Assembly: GCA_039545355.1 (NCBI GenBank)
Contig: BCJJ01000004.1
Span: 248,001 to 312,000, forward strand
Origin: Trichosporon coremiiforme
Taxonomy: Eukaryota; Basidiomycota; Tremellomycetes; Trichosporonales; Trichosporonaceae
DNA length: 64,000 nucleotides
Direction of reading: 5' to 3'
The notes beneath the pieces are model-generated. The model saw only the letters and a list, made by a program, of their open reading frames with translations, was not told where the DNA came from and did no database searches. Shown piece after piece: positions 3,204 to 12,744 of the stretch. Position 1 is the first letter of the stretch; every line of letters begins with the position of its first letter. A program made the translations under genes and the position numbers.

Positions 3204-5216
3204 GCCCGCCAAGTCCGGCGGTCTAGAACATGCTGCAACGTGTATCATAACTGTACGCATATACTCCTAGACATTTGTTACATTATGCATAAGTGATCTG
3301 GCATGAGAATGACCCCTGGACAAGCGGTGGCGTCTCGGCAGAGCGGCGGTGCACCGGACTGCAGCAATCGGACTGACGACTCCTCAGAGCTTCCTACCAT
3401 GAGGCAAGTCTCTTTGTAAGCTACCCCTTCAAACTCCTGGCAATGCAAGTTGCAGCCAGTGGCCGGATCTCAACGATAGGTCCGGCGTATGGCATGCACG
3501 CCAGGTACTCGACACACGCTCGAAGCACATTCGACACGCACCCAACACATCATTGCAGCATCCCATACAGATACCCCTTATTATCGGCAAAGACCAATGA
3601 GACTGGAGCTGATAGCGGGCAACTTCGAAACGCCGACCTTGCGGCACCAGCGTACATACATACAGCAGATTGAGTTTGCATCATATGCTTTTCCGCCACG
3701 CCGCCGCCAGGGTGATGCTGGTCGTGCATCGCGGGCGGCAGCGGCGTGAACAAGGTCATGTCACGCGTAGAACGGGGCTGTCGAAACGTCGTGCGCAGAG
3801 AGACCGTCGAGAGAGACAGGCGGCGACGCAGTTGGTCAAATAGATCCCATCGAGTTGACGTTGAAATTGGAGCGGAAGAACGATTATGATGTGGTTGTGG
3901 AAGACGCCTCATTCCCAATGTTGGCGGATGATTTGATGATGGCCGCCTGATATCGTGGTTTGAAGGGTTGTCAACAGCAACTGCCGTGGAAGATATGTGG
4001 ATGTCCTCAACCAAGCTTCACTGCACACTTCCATACAGTCCATACAGGACACCTTGATCTCTGACTCTTGACAATATGCTCACTTCTTCGCGGCAGAATA
4101 ATCATGTCATCTCCGCCATGATCGGCAACTCAAGAATATCCCAATAATCGCAGTTCAACAATCTCACCACGATTTATGCAACACACCCAGGTCGTCTGTA
4201 CTTAGACTCTAGTATCACCAGATGACACACATTATGAGGCGCAAGCGTAGTAACTATCTCCCAAATGCTTGACCAGAATGTTGGACAGATGCGGCACAGC
4301 AAGCCTTGGGCTCGACCCTCAAAGCGATACGGACCACGGGGTCGGCTACTTAACGCGCAATGCCTCGACCGACTTGAAACATACCCTGGTGCAAGCCTGT
4401 GCCGATCCGGGCATCTCAATGATGTTCTGCTCATGCGTTCTCTCGCTCAGTTAGCATGCATGTTTTCATGGCTACAATGGCATGTGAAGGCGTACTTGGC
4501 ATGCAGATGAAACGGTGTATTCAGAAGCGGGGAGAGCCCGAAATCGTTGCGAAACGATACGCCCCTGGCCAGGATTACAATGGTATCAGCAGCGTACCAT
4601 CGTCACTGCCTTCCCTTGGCGCACTTGCGACACCGCACAGCGTTTCGCCCGACGAAGACGACAACGTTCTCCCCGCGGCTCATCTTCTGCCTACTCCTGC
4701 CATCCCCTATGCCCTCAATCCTTGGCAGACTCTGCAATGAGAGTCTCGATACGGACTCGGTCAATTGGCCAAGCGCTGCCTTTGCTATTTTACGGGCGTC
4801 GTTCCGCACCCCGCAGGAGATGGAGTCTGTTTGAACCTGCACCTCCGTCGACTGATACGAGGGGCTGAGTTCTGCTGCTGCTGCTGCTGTTTCAACATCG
4901 CCCACCAACATGACCGTACTCCGCTCCACTGACAGCAGTAGACACAGCAGTTCAGGACCGCACCACTCAGTTTCTAACACTTCTCTGACAGGTGCATGAA
5001 ACTACTCGGTGAACGGTCAGCGAATGCGTTTCGATTCGACATGACCGTGGTTGCCCAGCAAGGCGTGCTATGAGTGGTGGGCACCTTCTCTGACCACCAA
5101 AGCGATGGAGTATGATTCCAGTGTTCCTGCCAGGAGCCCCGGAGTGGCCGTGCTGACCTAGAGTGAAGTGACTCCATGACCTTTCGATGAGAGCGAGCCC
5201 CGAGTATAGAGTACTG
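3204..5216. other. Gene-free stretch upstream of the repeat-polyprotein gene
   Basis: About 2 kb with only short frames on both strands and no recognisable protein, RNA gene or splice-linked exon set. It has lower GC than the flanking coding sequence. It probably contains the long upstream control region of the secreted repeat-protein gene and the 3' end of the DUF1308 gene. Confidence 0.5.
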
Positions 5217-5224
5217 TATATAAG
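5217..5224 (+). promoter_or_regulatory. TATA box (TATATAAG)
   Basis: A perfect TATATAAG lies 227 bases upstream of the ATG at 5444. It is followed by a C/T-rich leader with CA-type start candidates (about 5255-5300). It is the clearest TATA box noticed in the window. That fits a strongly and conditionally expressed secreted product, whereas most housekeeping genes here show none. Confidence 0.6.
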
Positions 5225-5374: not shown

Positions 5375-5429
5375 GTGAGTGCTTTCCTTTCCCGCCCGTG
5401 CAAACGCAGCTATCAGCGCTGACAAGCAG
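5375..5429 (+). other. Probable 5'UTR intron of the repeat-polyprotein gene
   Basis: A GTGAGT donor at 5375 and GCTGACAAGCAG ending at 5429 match the intron consensus of this genome exactly (55 nt). It lies wholly in the leader, 14 bases before the ATG at 5444, so it does not change the protein. Confidence 0.6.
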
Positions 5430-5443
5430 ACGACACTTTCACT

Positions 5444-8410
5444 ATGCAGCTTCACACGCTTCTTCCTCTTATCATTTACCTCGGTACCGCTACTGCGGCA
5501 CCCTTTGGCGGGGACGACGCCGGCGCTGGCGCTGGCTTCGCCTCTGGTGAGGGTTCTGGCCTCGAGGCTGTCCGCGACGCCAAGATCTTTGGCGGGCCCG
5601 GCATTGTCATGAAGGGTCCCATCCTTCCCAAGAGGGGCAACGCCAAGTCCGACGAGGACGGCGACTGCGATGACGACGACAACGCCGAGGACAACGAGGA
5701 GCGCGCGCTCGACGACATGCCTATGGGCCTGATGGAGCGCGGCAGCGGTGGTGGCGGAGGCGGCAGCAGCAGCGGTGGCAGCAAGTGGGCACCCGTCGCC
5801 AGCATCGGAACCGCTCTCGGCGGAATTGGAGCCTTCGGTAACTTCATCAACGGCCTTATTCACAAGGACAAGCGCGATGTCGACAACTACGTCCTGACCG
5901 AGGAGGATGAGGACCACCTCAAGACCCTCTATGGACGCGACCTCACCCTCGACGAGCGTGCCAATTGGCGTAGCGTTGCTTCCGGCATCGGCAGTGCTGG
6001 AACCATTCTCGGTGGCGTCGCCGGTATCGGCGGTCTCATCAACCAGTTGATCCACCCGGACCAGGGTCAGAACAGTAAGCGAGACTCCGTCACCGAGCTT
6101 TCGCCCGAGGTCGAGGACCAGCTAAAGTCTCTCCTCGGACGAGACCTCACGCTTGAAGAGCGTAAGTTTAGCTGGGGCAAGGCTCTCGGCTGGGGAGGCC
6201 TCGTGACCGGTCTCCTGCCCCTCCTCGGCGGCGGTGGCCAGCAGCAGCAGCAGCAGCAACAGCCTGAACAGCAGCAGGAAGGCCAGCAGCAGAATGGCAA
6301 GCGCGACTACCAGGTGACCGAAATGTCGCCTGAAGTCCAGGACCAGCTGAAGACTCTCCTCGGACGAGACCTGACCCTCGAGGAGCGTAAGTTTAACTGG
6401 GGCAAGGCTCTCGGCTGGGGAGGCCTCGTGACCGGTCTCCTGCCCCTCCTCGGCGGCGGTGGCCAGCAGCAGCAGCAGCAGCAACAGCCTGAACAGCAGC
6501 AGGAAGGCCAGCAGCAGAATGGCAAGCGCGACTACCAGGTGACCGAAATGTCGCCTGAAGTCCAGGACCAGCTGAAGACTCTCCTCGGACGAGACCTGAC
6601 CCTCGAGGAGCGTAAGTTTAACTGGGGCAAGGCTCTCGGCTGGGGAGGCCTCGTGACCGGTCTCCTGCCCCTCCTCGGCGGCGGTGGCCAGCAGCAGCAG
6701 CAGCAGCAACAGCCTGAACAGCAGCAGGAAGGCCAGCAGCAGAATGGCAAGCGCGACTACCAGGTGACCGAAATGTCGCCTGAAGTCCAGGACCAGCTGA
6801 AGACTCTCCTCGGACGAGACCTGACCCTCGAGGAGCGTAAGTTTAACTGGGGCAAGGCTCTCGGCTGGGGAGGCCTCGTGACCGGTCTCCTGCCCCTCCT
6901 CGGCGGCGGTGGCCAGCAGCAGCAGCAGCAGCAACAGCCTGAACAGCAGCAGGAAGGCCAGCAGCAGAACGGCAAGCGTGACTTCCAGACCACTGAGCTC
7001 TCGCCGGAGCTCCAGGATCAGCTTCAGACTCTCTTCGGACGAGACCTCGGCCTCGAGGAGCGCAAGTTCAATTGGCGCACCGGTCTCCAAATTGCAGGCG
7101 GCGTGGCCCCGTTCCTCCCCTTCATCTTCGGCAACCATGATGGCGGTGGCCAGCAGCAGCAGGACGGACAGCAGCAGAACGGCAAGCGCGACTTCGCCGA
7201 GCTCTCGCCCGAGATCGAGGACCAGCTTAAGACTCTCTACGGCCGGGACTTGTCCCTCGAGGAGCGCAAGCTCGGCGGCATTCTCAACATCCTCGGTCCC
7301 ATCCTGGGTATCGGCAGTGACCTCATGAACTCCAAGCGCGACTACCAGGCCACCGAACTCTCGCCTGAGGTTGAGGATCAGCTCAACGCTCTCTACGGCC
7401 GGGACCTGTCTCTCGAAGAGCGCGGCAAGCTCGGCGGCATCTTCAACATCCTCGGCCCAATCTTGGGCATCGGCAGTGACCTCATGAACTCCAAGCGTGG
7501 CCTCCAGGCTGAGATCCCGCCCGAGATGGAGGAGCAGCTGAAGACTCTCTTTGGACGGGATCTCACCGTTGAAGAGCGCGGCTTCGGCGGCATCCTCGGC
7601 AAGCTCTTCCCCTTCTTGGGTCTCGGCGGTGATATGATGAACTCCAAGCGAGACGTCTCCGAGGAGCTCTCTCCCGAGATGGAGGAACAGCTGAAGACTC
7701 TCTTCGGACGAGACCTGACTGTCGAAGAGCGCGGTCTCAGCGGTATTCTGAAGTTCCTCGGCCCCCTCTCCAGTATCATCGGACTCACCGGTGACGGGAA
7801 CGAAAGGCGGGACCTCCAGGCTGGTCTCTCGCCCGATATGGAGGATGAGCTCAAGTCTCTTTTTGGCCGGGACCTCACCCTCGAGGAGCGAGGCAAGTTT
7901 TCGACCGCTGCCAACTGGATCGGCGGCGCCGGCATGGTCAGCGGTATCCTCGGAAGCATCCTGCCCATGTTCCAGCACAAGAACGACAACCAGCAGCAGA
8001 ATGCCGCTCGTGGCCTCGATGAGAGGGGCAAGTTCCAGGACCTCAAGAACATCGGTTCCTTCGGATGGCACACATACCGTGCGGCCGATCAGCTCTTCCC
8101 CGACCAAGTCGAGGAGGTGAAGGATAAGGTGAAGCACCTGTTCTCCCGCGACCTACTGGAGGAGGCGGCCCTCGCTGACCTGGAGCGCCTCAACCTGCAG
8201 AAGAGGTTTAAGCTGAAGCCTTTAGTTGGCGGCCCGGGACCCATCATTCCGCAATGGGTCTGGGACCCGAAGTACAGGAACGGCATGCAGGGCTGGGGCC
8301 AGCAGGAGCATGGCAAGCGCGGCTACGAGGCTTCTACGGACTGGGAGGAGGAGCTTGCTGAGCAGCTGCGCGCTGGCCTCTCCGCCCGTGGCCTCAATGC
8401 CCTCGCTTAA
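5444..8410 (+). CDS. Secreted kexin-processed repeat polyprotein (repellent-like peptide precursor)
   Basis: Single coding exon, 988 aa. Residues 1-19 form a signal peptide (MQLHTLLPLIIYLGTATAA). The rest is cut up by Lys-Arg pairs at residues 63, 143, 212, 286, 361, 436, 511, 581, 631, 684, 735, 920 and 958, plus Arg-Arg at 788: typical Kex2 sites. Eleven segments share an acidic helix-like head (consensus ELSPEVEDQLKTLFGRDLTL, then EER). A Gly-rich hydrophobic stretch follows (GWGGLVTGLLPLLGGGG, or GGILNILGPILGIGSDLMN). Four also carry a Gln-rich tail. A twelfth, degenerate head (HLFSRDLLEE) lies near residue 870. Predicted products are about 29-131 residues, mostly 50-75. Architecture resembles Ustilago Rep1-type repellents, which Kex2 cuts into surface-active, fibre-forming peptides; a leader/core modified-peptide precursor is the alternative. 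No UstYa-type or other tailoring gene lies nearby. Confidence 0.85.
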   Translation: MQLHTLLPLIIYLGTATAAPFGGDDAGAGAGFASGEGSGLEAVRDAKIFGGPGIVMKGPILPKRGNAKSDEDGDCDDDDNAEDNEERALDDMPMGLMERGSGGGGGGSSSGGSKWAPVASIGTALGGIGAFGNFINGLIHKDKRDVDNYVLTEEDEDHLKTLYGRDLTLDERANWRSVASGIGSAGTILGGVAGIGGLINQLIHPDQGQNSKRDSVTELSPEVEDQLKSLLGRDLTLEERKFSWGKALGWGGLVTGLLPLLGGGGQQQQQQQQPEQQQEGQQQNGKRDYQVTEMSPEVQDQLKTLLGRDLTLEERKFNWGKALGWGGLVTGLLPLLGGGGQQQQQQQQPEQQQEGQQQNGKRDYQVTEMSPEVQDQLKTLLGRDLTLEERKFNWGKALGWGGLVTGLLPLLGGGGQQQQQQQQPEQQQEGQQQNGKRDYQVTEMSPEVQDQLKTLLGRDLTLEERKFNWGKALGWGGLVTGLLPLLGGGGQQQQQQQQPEQQQEGQQQNGKRDFQTTELSPELQDQLQTLFGRDLGLEERKFNWRTGLQIAGGVAPFLPFIFGNHDGGGQQQQDGQQQNGKRDFAELSPEIEDQLKTLYGRDLSLEERKLGGILNILGPILGIGSDLMNSKRDYQATELSPEVEDQLNALYGRDLSLEERGKLGGIFNILGPILGIGSDLMNSKRGLQAEIPPEMEEQLKTLFGRDLTVEERGFGGILGKLFPFLGLGGDMMNSKRDVSEELSPEMEEQLKTLFGRDLTVEERGLSGILKFLGPLSSIIGLTGDGNERRDLQAGLSPDMEDELKSLFGRDLTLEERGKFSTAANWIGGAGMVSGILGSILPMFQHKNDNQQQNAARGLDERGKFQDLKNIGSFGWHTYRAADQLFPDQVEEVKDKVKHLFSRDLLEEAALADLERLNLQKRFKLKPLVGGPGPIIPQWVWDPKYRNGMQGWGQQEHGKRGYEASTDWEEELAEQLRAGLSARGLNALA
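6301..6975 (+). repeat. Three near-identical 225-bp tandem units inside the polyprotein gene
   Basis: Units 6301-6525, 6526-6750 and 6751-6975 read the same base for base apart from the last few positions of the third. Each encodes 75 residues beginning just after the Lys codon of a KR site. The second half of the preceding unit (about 6165-6300) is also almost identical, while its first half has diverged. This points to recent unequal exchange in the array. Confidence 0.95.
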
Positions 8411-10265: not shown

Positions 10266-10677
10266 GACTGGCTGTTAAGGGTGAGGAAGGCAGGAGGGTG
10301 TGACGAAGGAGGGCGAAGTTAGGTGTCGCTGAATCGCGGTGAGAGAAGGAAAACGTGGAGATAGATGTTCGATGGTCGGTAGCTCGATGCTTTTGACTGC
10401 CGTTCGTGCCGAAGAGCGAGAAGAGGATGGGTTTTGGTGTGATGTAAGCAAGAAGCGGACTCAAGATGACGATCACAGGTTTATTGTGAGGGCGTAGGTC
10501 GATGGTGGAGGGCGATGTTGGACACATAGGCGCGCGGCACGTGACGTGCCTCTCGCAAGCCTATGGGTGATTTTGCCACCCAACGACCCTCGAACTCATC
10601 TTCCGTCAGTCATTCGACTTCATCTCGAAAACAACCCCTACACCTGCACTCATCCGACCCCAAAAACGGCATCCAAG
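10266..10677. promoter_or_regulatory. Divergent promoter region SPT4 / SNU66
   Basis: 412 bases between two divergent starts. Leaders on both sides are C/T/A-rich in the sense direction. No TATA box was recognised. The two genes, for elongation and splicing, could share control from here. Confidence 0.5.
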
Positions 10678-12744
10678 ATGGCGTCCGAGTCAACACCGCA
10701 AGACTCGCTTTCGCTCGAGGAGACGAACAAGGTGCGCATCTCGCTTGGCCTGAAGCCGATCGGCGTCGAGCCCGAGGACGGCGAGCCGGAGGAAGAGGAC
10801 CGAGACGCGATTGCGGAGCGCAACTTCTCCGATCGGATCAGGGAGGAGAAGCGCCAGCGTGCCGAGAACGAGATAAAGGAGCGGATAGAGAAGTACGTAA
10901 CCCTCTTCGTTCCACTGCTAATATGTAACAGGCAGAAGAACCAGCGCGCGCTGCACGCGAAATTGAAGGGATCAACACTCGGCGATGCTGGCAAGGACGA
11001 CATCGATGCCAAGTCGTGGGCGAAGAAGCTGAAGAAGCGCTCCGCGAAGCGGGAAGCTGAGCTCGCTGCCCGAAGGGCGAAGGAGATGGCCGAGGCAGAC
11101 GCGGCAGCCTACGATGAGCGGGATCTCGTCGGCCTGCGCGTCGCGCACGACACAGACGACCTCGTCGAGGGCGAGGACGTCGTGCTGACTCTGCGCGACG
11201 CTCGTGTTCTCGACGGAGACGAGGATGAGCTGCAGGATGTAGCTCTCGCCGACCGCGAGGCTGACGCCGCAAGGGCCGAGCGCGCCCGCCGCGCCAAAGC
11301 GCAGTACACGGGCTACGACGACGAAGAGTTCACGACAACCCGGATCGGGAAGAAGGCCGAGGTGCTGTCAAAGTACGACGACGGGTTCAGCGCGGACACG
11401 TCTCGCGCAGAAGGATTCCGCCTGGGCGAGGCGCCTCCGCCAAAGGTCGTCGTGGAGGAGGACGAGGAGCTCGGCCACGCCCCAGACAGCAAGGTCAAGC
11501 TCTCGCTCGACTTTGCGAAGGACTGGGAAGTCGACGACTACATGCGCGAGGGCGACAAGGGGTTCAAGGTGAAGAAGCGCAAGGTGAAGCGCAAGACGCG
11601 GCAGCGCGAGGTGGACCCCGAGGACGAGGCGGCGATGGACGTGGAACCGACCTTTGAGCGGCGGCGCGTTGAGGACGCGCCCGACAATCTCGTAGACGAC
11701 GACGACCTGCAGGCCGCTCTGGCGCGGAGTCGGCGCGCGAACAACAAGAAGAAACGTGTTCGGCCCGAGGACCTCGCGGAACGCATCAAGGCGGAGCGCG
11801 ACGCCAACCCCGAACCCGAAAAGGAAAACGACGAGGATGACGGCCGCATCACGTTTGACGAGACGAGCGAGTTTGTCCGTAACGTCACGGCCGAGGGGAA
11901 GATTAGCCGCAGCAAGAGCGCGACGGGCACGCCTGCGCCTGCGCCCTCCGCCGCTGCCGAGGAGTCCGACGATGCAAAGCCGCAAGTTATCAAGATCGAG
12001 CGGGTCGAGGGCATCGAGGACGCGGAAATGTCCGACGAGGAGGACGGCGACGACGAGCTCGCGGAAATGGCGGCGCGGGAGGGACTCTCCCTCGCCGAGT
12101 ACCGGGAGAAGATCGACGCGCAGATGGCCGAGATGTCGCAGCTCGGCGCCGAGGAGTCGACGCCCACCGAAGAGCCCAAGATCACGCAGGGCATGGCTGG
12201 CGCCCTGGCCCTGTTGCGCAACCAAGGCTCGCTCGAGAAGAAGGACGCGGCGACGCTCGAGGCCGAAAAGCGCAAAGAGCGCCTGCAAATGCAGCACGAC
12301 CTGTGGCTCGCGGACCACAAGCGGCGCCTCGCGCGCGAGGAGATGGACAAGCTCGCGTCGCGCGGCACGGCGCACCAGAAGGACCAGGCGCAGCGCGAGT
12401 ACGAGAACCGGCAGCGCGAGATGGCCGAGGCGAAAGCGGCGCTCGAGGAGTTTAAGCACTACCGCCCCGAGGTCGAGTTGAAGTACCATGACGAGTTTGG
12501 GCGCGAGATGACGCCCAAGGAGGCGTGGAAGAGCCTGTCGCATCGTTTCCATGGCAAGACTTCTGGAAGGATGAAGACGGAGAAGAGGCTGAAGAAGATC
12601 GAGGAGGAGCGCAAGGCCAAGGCTATGCTGGCCGGCGATACGCCGCTTGGCATGGGGGCTGCGTTCCAGAAGAGACAGGAGAAGACGGGGCAGGCACACA
12701 TGGTGCTCTCGGTTGGAAACAAGGGCAGTGTCCAGAAGAAGTAG
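10678..12744 (+). CDS. SNU66: U4/U6.U5 tri-snRNP protein Snu66 (SART1 family)
   Basis: Exons 10678-10892 and 10932-12744; 675 aa. The 39-nt intron (GTACGT...CTAATATGTAACAG) keeps frame and has no stop, so a naive translation would wrongly include 13 residues. The start at 10678 (AAGATG) gives the family's N-terminal SLSLEETNKVRISLGLKPIG. Long charged and coiled regions follow. The C-terminus has the SART1 signature: YRPEVELKYHDEFGREMTPK, then EAWKSLSHRFHGKTSGRMK and a closing Lys-rich run. Snu66 is needed for tri-snRNP joining in the spliceosome and binds the ubiquitin-like Hub1 in other fungi; I did not identify the Hub1-binding motif with certainty. Confidence 0.95.
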   Translation: MASESTPQDSLSLEETNKVRISLGLKPIGVEPEDGEPEEEDRDAIAERNFSDRIREEKRQRAENEIKERIEKYVTLFVPLLICNRQKNQRALHAKLKGSTLGDAGKDDIDAKSWAKKLKKRSAKREAELAARRAKEMAEADAAAYDERDLVGLRVAHDTDDLVEGEDVVLTLRDARVLDGDEDELQDVALADREADAARAERARRAKAQYTGYDDEEFTTTRIGKKAEVLSKYDDGFSADTSRAEGFRLGEAPPPKVVVEEDEELGHAPDSKVKLSLDFAKDWEVDDYMREGDKGFKVKKRKVKRKTRQREVDPEDEAAMDVEPTFERRRVEDAPDNLVDDDDLQAALARSRRANNKKKRVRPEDLAERIKAERDANPEPEKENDEDDGRITFDETSEFVRNVTAEGKISRSKSATGTPAPAPSAAAEESDDAKPQVIKIERVEGIEDAEMSDEEDGDDELAEMAAREGLSLAEYREKIDAQMAEMSQLGAEESTPTEEPKITQGMAGALALLRNQGSLEKKDAATLEAEKRKERLQMQHDLWLADHKRRLAREEMDKLASRGTAHQKDQAQREYENRQREMAEAKAALEEFKHYRPEVELKYHDEFGREMTPKEAWKSLSHRFHGKTSGRMKTEKRLKKIEEERKAKAMLAGDTPLGMGAAFQKRQEKTGQAHMVLSVGNKGSVQKK

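Follow-up and report, generated by a model that had tools for sequence, protein, structure and literature searches.

We describe a precursor gene in the 64-kb stretch of DNA analysed here (hereafter the window; C4:248001-312000), which encodes a repeat protein with a Kex2-type layout of dibasic sites and has a second copy on contig C2 of the same genome. We consider it about an even chance that the product is a KEX2-processed repeat protein (KEP) with two classes of cut site in each unit, in which the acidic head of the unit is a linker and its hydrophobic tail the product. A second cut inside the units, with the head as linker, is suggested by the conservation pattern along the units, by the shift in substitution rate at the (E/D)ER motif that ends the head, by the LxxR rule for Kex2, and by two metagenomic proteins (P0001 and P0002) with a similar linker end before other tails.

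The gene was observed as a single uninterrupted frame at window 5444-8410 (+), encoding 988 aa plus stop. The protein begins with MQLHTLLPLIIYLGTATA followed by AP, an 18-aa signal-peptide-like start judged by eye, and with this N-terminus it is probably secreted. Translation and counting bore out the 13 KR and the single RR given by the initial annotation, and also found six RK and no KK. Across 20,000 residue shuffles of the precursor, KR occurred 2.5 times on average and at most 10 times, compared with the 13 observed; this test overstates independence, since the units are copies of one another. Cutting in silico after KR and RR produced 15 fragments: a 64-aa leader, an 80-aa segment (strongly acidic, then with a Gly-rich tail at its end), ten units, and fragments of 132, 38 and 29 aa. 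The window copy contains 11 related units, ten of which are bounded by KR/RR (50-75 aa each), while unit 11 (aa 790-856, 67 aa) terminates in NAAR with no dibasic and remains within the 132-aa fragment. The eleven related segments of 50-75 residues first reported are therefore the right number if the eleventh is ended at NAAR, with only ten being dibasic-bounded. Units 2-6 carry a Gly-rich tail followed by a Q-rich end. Units 3-5, a recent array expansion, are identical in protein, and their DNA differs pairwise by 0, 2 and 2 of 225 bases. The parts of the gene are as follows.

5444..8410, + strand: polyprotein coding sequence, 988 aa plus stop (homolog on C2, dN/dS below 1)
5444..5497, + strand: putative signal peptide, aa 1-18, likely cut between TATA and AP (by eye from the sequence)
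5498..5875, + strand: leader, aa 19-144, with KR 63-64, a very acidic stretch, NEER, LMER and a hydrophobic, Gly-rich tail that ends in KDKR; short of a complete unit (KR 63-64 and 143-144 both kept on C2)
5876..6082, + strand: unit 1, aa 145-213, putative linker end LDER at 172, tail 173-213 (from sequence)
6083..6979, + strand: units 2-5, aa 214-512, near-identical, with Q-rich tail ends (225-bp tandem array at 6101-7079)
6980..7189, + strand: unit 6, aa 513-582 (from sequence)
7190..7810, + strand: units 7-10, aa 583-789, with short tails of 22-24 aa excluding the dibasic (from sequence)
7811..8011, + strand: unit 11, aa 790-856, ending NAAR (NAAR also in the matching C2 unit)
8012..8407, + strand: C-terminal region, aa 857-988, with GLDER, the conserved stretch GKFQDLKNIGSFGWHTYRAADQLFP, and KR 920-921 and 958-959 (KR 920-921 lost on C2, 958-959 kept)

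Units were compared across both gene copies, 19 in all (11 + 8), 17 of them distinct. Their heads (26-31 aa, net charge -2 to -7) follow a consensus of roughly D..xELSPExEDQLKTL(F/Y/L)GRDLxLEER, and both L and the GR of LxxLxGR, plus the final ER, are invariant in the 17 distinct units. Tails start directly after the head with K, G, A or S and mostly end NxKR. Conservation drops exactly after (E/D)ER, with acidic heads near invariant and hydrophobic tails hypervariable: mean column entropy in the distinct units was 0.54 bits for the last 12 head columns and 2.39 for the first 12 tail columns, the latter value being inflated by left-alignment of the tails without gaps. Without the dibasic, tail length ranges over 22-45 aa in the window copy and reaches 54 in the C2 copy, and the net charge of the tails is -1 to +2 in the window copy and -1 to +3 over all 19 units. 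They are Gly-rich, and the best 18-residue Eisenberg mean was 0.52-0.76 in every one of the 19. The plan first described for each segment, an acidic head plus a Gly-rich hydrophobic stretch, was thus found throughout both copies. Because the tails differ in sequence yet remain hydrophobic, they would seem to point to a bulk property rather than a receptor ligand.

The genome (42.04 Mb in 134 contigs) contains the second copy at C2:1401198-1403546 (L009:5198-7546), with 782 aa and 8 units; the two proteins are identical at 490 of 704 aligned residues (70%). The two copies lie in collinear DNA, with 82-85% identity over roughly 10 kb on each side (stretches compared: C4:242001-267596 and C2:1388933-1415086), and are for that reason homeologs or an old segment duplication. 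The ratio of nonsynonymous to synonymous substitution (dN/dS) between copies was 0.20 for paired heads and 0.41 for paired tails (164 and 217 codons), over six unit pairs that were matched by the analyst's choice. The tail value exceeded the head value in 99.3% of 1000 bootstraps and in five of the six pairs. Values for other parts were 0.21 (leader), 0.29 (C-terminal aa 857-919) and 0.07 (first open stretch of the downstream neighbour). With a syntenic second copy and dN/dS well below 1, the precursor is a real gene under purifying selection. Ten of the 14 window dibasics have an aligned C2 counterpart, nine of which are still dibasic, and the other four fall in gaps. A single-unit search of the genome at E <=10 returned 20 matches, 19 of them inside the two gene copies and the remaining one at E 2.07. 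A codon pattern for GRDLxxEER was found at 18 places, 16 within the two copies, while the reversed control gave 0.

The head ends were compared with the reported preferences of Kex2, which requires Arg at P1, accepts Glu at P2, prefers Leu or another aliphatic residue at P4 (LxxR) and disfavours Asp at P3 (PMC8528282). At the (E/D)ER site, 17 of 19 units have L or V as P4, and at LxGR within the head all 19 have L there. Of the 50 Arg in the window copy, 42 occupy P1 in either a dibasic or an aliphatic-x-x-R site, against a shuffled mean of 18.0 and a maximum of 28; in the C2 copy 31 of 45 do so (shuffled mean 17.2, maximum 29; 3000 shuffles each). The common descent of the units, one ancestral arrangement copied repeatedly, inflates every such shuffle test. 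Kexin P-domain (PF01483) matches over the cut-off were observed on both gene-bearing contigs, at C4:883757-884011 and C2:1148314-1148568. Matches to the peptidase S10 profile, presumably the family of Kex1, were also present in the genome. The trypsin family (PF00089) gave no match in the genome, where the control matched 11 of 14 genomes and intron-split genes may escape. This speaks against a trypsin-like protease as the cutter at EER; that candidate was disfavoured and the LxxR reading of Kex2 adopted instead.

In the two-cut reading, the precursor would enter the secretory route, where a late-Golgi kexin would cut after the KR/RR that closes each tail and also after the (L/V)(E/D)ER that closes each acidic head, with a further cut after LxGR inside the head being possible. 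This would free near-constant anionic linkers together with about a dozen different hydrophobic, Gly-rich, near-neutral peptides, to be trimmed by a Kex1-type carboxypeptidase. The anionic linker would keep the payload soluble and inactive until cutting, and the payload would then act on a surface or membrane through its bulk hydrophobicity. The predicted N-termini of the mature peptides are KFNW, KLGG or GLSG rather than DYQ or DFQ. Calculated monoisotopic masses are 2194.24 and 2357.28 for the predicted tails KLGGILNILGPILGIGSDLMNS and GLSGILKFLGPLSSIIGLTGDGNE, and 3022.43 for the predicted linker DVSEELSPEMEEQLKTLFGRDLTVEE.

A simpler processing scheme, which we regard as somewhat unlikely, has Kex2 cutting only at KR/RR, so that the mature, surface-active product would be the whole 50-75-residue unit, a repellent-like amphiphile with an acidic head. 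Kex2 canonically cuts at KR/RR, and the retention of nine of the ten aligned dibasics is in keeping with this scheme; a polar head with a hydrophobic tail is a natural surfactant design, and the Rep1 peptides are described as amphipathic and 35-53 aa long (PMC4617103). Left unexplained are the sharp change of conservation at (E/D)ER, the 42 of 50 Arg at Kex2-like P1 positions, and the similar linker end before other tails in proteins with no KR. The first proposal of a Kex2-cut precursor therefore holds for the secreted-looking, Kex2-type repeat layout, while its whole KR-to-KR peptides (DYQ, DFQ and DVSEE starts) are called into question by the rate shift at (E/D)ER, the LxxR rule and P0001/P0002.

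P0001 and P0002 came from one of three protein searches, each of which scored just the roughly 8000 best word-sharing candidates. The search with units 7-11 (274 aa, 7998 candidates) matched P0001 (E 5.8e-6) and P0002 (E 3.5e-4), values that are optimistic because they are summed over repeats, motif-only pattern counts being the more sober control. Both are unnamed proteins from JGI metagenome contigs, with a signal-peptide-like start and tandem units such as REEEMELFGRDLSLEER followed by SFWNTLKKDFGKVASFAAPIVSKFIR. These features, and ER before the tails, are shared with the precursor; the differences are that the two have no KR or RR (KK is present inside tails), that their tails are near-identical and cationic, and that the upstream half of the linker compares no better than shuffles. 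ER directly precedes the SFWNT tails in 7/7 units of P0001 and 5/5 of P0002. The nine residues GRDLTVEER scored 38, with shuffled maxima of 31 and 29 (500 shuffles each), and the 19 linker residues upstream of them scored no better than shuffles. Between P0001/P0002 and the unit tails, 2 of 34 comparisons reached 0.05 (0.045 and 0.005), both with one C2 tail. When P0001 was searched against the genome at E <=10, all 11 matches (best 6.3e-8) fell inside the two gene copies, and no relative of P0001 or the window units was found in viral and prokaryote contig collections. The linker reading would predict the motif to stand where it does, immediately ahead of the payloads in a secreted-looking repeat protein. 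P0001 carries 7 and P0002 5 copies of a cationic SFWNT... peptide, set between acidic linkers, and both look like antimicrobial-peptide polyproteins themselves.

Several observations weigh against two cuts per unit, in addition to the choice of unit pairs and the common descent noted above. Unit 1 has LDER, with the unfavourable Asp at P3, and P4 is H or F in 2 of 19 units, both from C2. The rates were reversed in one of the six pairs (aa 790 / C2 531), where the head dN/dS was higher than that of the tail. KR at aa 920-921 is ER on C2, and NAAR instead of a dibasic ends one C4 unit and two C2 units. The likeness to P0001 is confined to about 9-11 residues and may be due to chance, and FGR(D/E)LxxEER stands before the tail in just 3 of the 7 P0001 units and 3 of the 5 P0002 units. 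The motif alone is not rare: in the prokaryote collection, 65 unrelated stretches fit the pattern L[FYL]GRDLx[LVH]EE. The linker could also be conserved for another reason and stay attached.

In another explanation, which we find quite improbable, the protein remains whole as a repetitive structural protein of wall or matrix, with incidental KR sites. The heads are well conserved, and the structure predicted for a five-unit stretch, although of low confidence, draws a helix in 5/5 heads. The three identical units indicate copy-number turnover, which is common in wall proteins. The dibasics, in contrast, are kept at 9/10 aligned sites in copies that are 70% identical, and the placement of Arg at Kex2-like sites also counts against this explanation. 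The five units were also modelled with no confident fold (mean predicted local distance difference test score, pLDDT, 38.8), a weak test for either explanation since the model was built from just 2 sequences.

Compatible with the two-cut reading, and possible though well short of an even chance, is a role for the tails as membrane-active, cytolytic or antimicrobial peptides whose activity the anionic linker suppresses, for which candidalysin and the spider linear peptides would be the analogues. Helix moments over 18 residues, measured for nine tails or tail cores (from the 19 units) against their own shuffles, gave p <0.02 in two and <0.1 in five, the remaining four being above 0.1. The P0001 tail, with net charge +3, had a moment above 99% of its own shuffles (p 0.0085). 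The unit tails themselves are near neutral (-1 to +3), unlike cationic lytic peptides; 11-residue moments were no better than shuffles (0/38 head or tail comparisons below p 0.3), and the long Q-rich tails fit poorly. The Latarcin family (PF10279) matched none of the 17 unit sequences, nor the whole window protein. P0001 exceeded the Latarcin cut-off only as a sum over repeats and in none of its individual stretches, and three or more unrelated families likewise exceeded theirs. Haemolysin activity has been reported in clinical T. asahii isolates (PMC5383668) and gives a reason to test the tails.

The anionic-linker plan matches that of spider precursors, whose linker ends are described as having Arg at -1 and Glu at -2 to -4 (PMC7889660, PMC9788040). 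Latarcins and cupiennins share with our precursor an anionic propeptide and linkers cut after an Arg-ending motif, and release different linear peptides from one transcript. They differ in being animal, in their cationic payloads, in linkers of 6-25 aa, and in a linker start that has an inverted motif (Arg, then acidic) in place of KR. The parallel is an analogy, not kinship. Candida albicans Ece1, the candidalysin precursor, likewise yields several peptides from one Kex2-cut precursor (PMC7329392); it differs in giving eight peptides, of which one is lytic. We think it unlikely, while worth stating, that the linker end FGR(D/E)LxLEER serves fungi as a portable module for processing, in which a kexin-type cut after LEER would free interchangeable payloads (hydrophobic here, cationic amphipathic in P0001/P0002), and which would have arisen independently of the spider anionic-linker cassette for many membrane-active peptides in one precursor.

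For a surface role, Ustilago maydis Rep1 appears the best functional analogue (PMC4617103, PMC8528282), and a surface-active coat of hyphae or wall, Rep1-like in its working, is slightly favoured over membrane damage. The comparison with Rep1 made at the outset proved apt in plan, as Rep1 is reported to have 12 imperfect amphipathic repeats of 34-55 aa between Kex2 sites (PMC4617103). Both proteins have about a dozen imperfect repeats of tens of residues, Kex2 sites between them, and amphipathic or hydrophobic predicted products. The hallmark of the repellents is peptides that assemble on hyphae into surface-active, amyloid-like fibrils. The partial description of Rep1 on which this comparison is based mentions no head/tail split at an LxxR-type site.

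Membership in the KEPs was examined with two survey definitions: at least three repeats of at least 8 aa between Kex2 sites, none above 100 aa (Umemura), and repeats forming at least 15% of the length (Le Marquer) (PMC7329392, PMC6339444). With these applied by us and not through the authors' scripts, the ten KR/RR-bounded units together made up 645 of 988 residues, the fragment with unit 11 being 132 aa, and the kexin required in the organism is represented by the PF01483 matches on C4 and C2. The predicted precursor fits a KEP on the repeat and site criteria of both surveys. A signal peptide for secretion is a further KEP criterion, and the 18-aa N-terminus (ATA followed by AP) looks typical of one by eye. 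The Le Marquer definition also requires a non-membrane protein by TMHMM, and the tails are hydrophobic enough that such a filter might drop the precursor. Tremellomycetes are reported to average 1.00 KEP per strain (PMC7329392). The precursor shares with KEPs (Le Marquer 2019, Umemura 2020, Vogt 2022) its secreted type, at least three related fragments between dibasics and units below 100 aa; it differs in the predicted constant anionic linker with its internal (L/V)(E/D)ER site, in the hypervariable payload and in its long units. A constant linker with a hypervariable payload would make it a variant within the KEPs.

The same precursor plan is used by alpha-pheromones and ustiloxins (PMC7329392), and this is what speaks for a precursor of signal peptides (pheromone-like or quorum) or of cyclic, dikaritin-type ribosomally synthesized and post-translationally modified peptides, which we judge highly improbable. 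Payloads differ between most units (units 3-5 being identical), and no XA or XP directly follows KR/RR among the in silico fragments. The UstYa and hydrophobin profiles had no match in the genome, and since their controls matched 0 of 14 genomes nothing follows from this.

No named family was matched, as the initial annotation had held. The window protein had no Pfam family above cut-off (Spc25, SCGB3A and three other families, all under it, were taken as chance, as were three PDB matches at E 0.57-0.71), and there was no close relative among the best candidates of the three protein searches. The whole window protein gave no match at E <=0.001 among 7990 candidates, glutamine words having probably swamped the search, and C2 copy residues 365-770 gave none at E <=1 among 7996. 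We found no paper on such a gene family; supplementary KEP tables, which lay outside the search, may already list it.

Upstream regions of the two copies are identical at 549 of 733 aligned positions. The longest identical run is a 28-base block at window 4975-5002, a possible regulatory site. Two features precede the coding sequence.

5217..5224, + strand: TATA-like box TATATAAG, shared with the second copy in the upstream alignment (putative function)
5375..5429, + strand: possible intron in the 5' untranslated region (GTGAGT ... CTGAC ... AG), read from sequence, with GTGAGTGC and CTGAC also in the second copy

By alignment, the C2 copy stops at L009:7544-7546, 15 codons earlier than the window copy. 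The downstream open frame at window 10546-12744 encodes a SART-1 family protein with a HIND motif, and Rfam and tRNA scans of the whole window returned no matches. The collinear stretches, and the kexin P-domain matches on both contigs, make C4 and C2 look like homeologous contigs of a hybrid genome. Trichosporonaceae genomes are reported at 16.4-42.4 Mb and 56.5-62.8% GC, with four hybrids averaging 40.5 Mb (PMC7026411), and the genome size, the window GC (59.7%) and the doubled segment apparently agree with a hybrid Trichosporonaceae genome.

KEPs are numerous, with few products or functions known, and two genome surveys of them cut at dibasic sites only (PMC7329392, PMC6339444). Such surveys would predict the wrong peptides for this class if the constant part serves as a linker and LxxR sites inside the units are Kex2 substrates as well. 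In a yeast group from a class with reportedly few KEPs, the gene offers a testable candidate source of peptides that are hydrophobic and perhaps membrane-active. If the portable-module reading were true, the haemolytic activity that has been reported could stem from such peptides, so far unrecognised, in a Trichosporon-like yeast.

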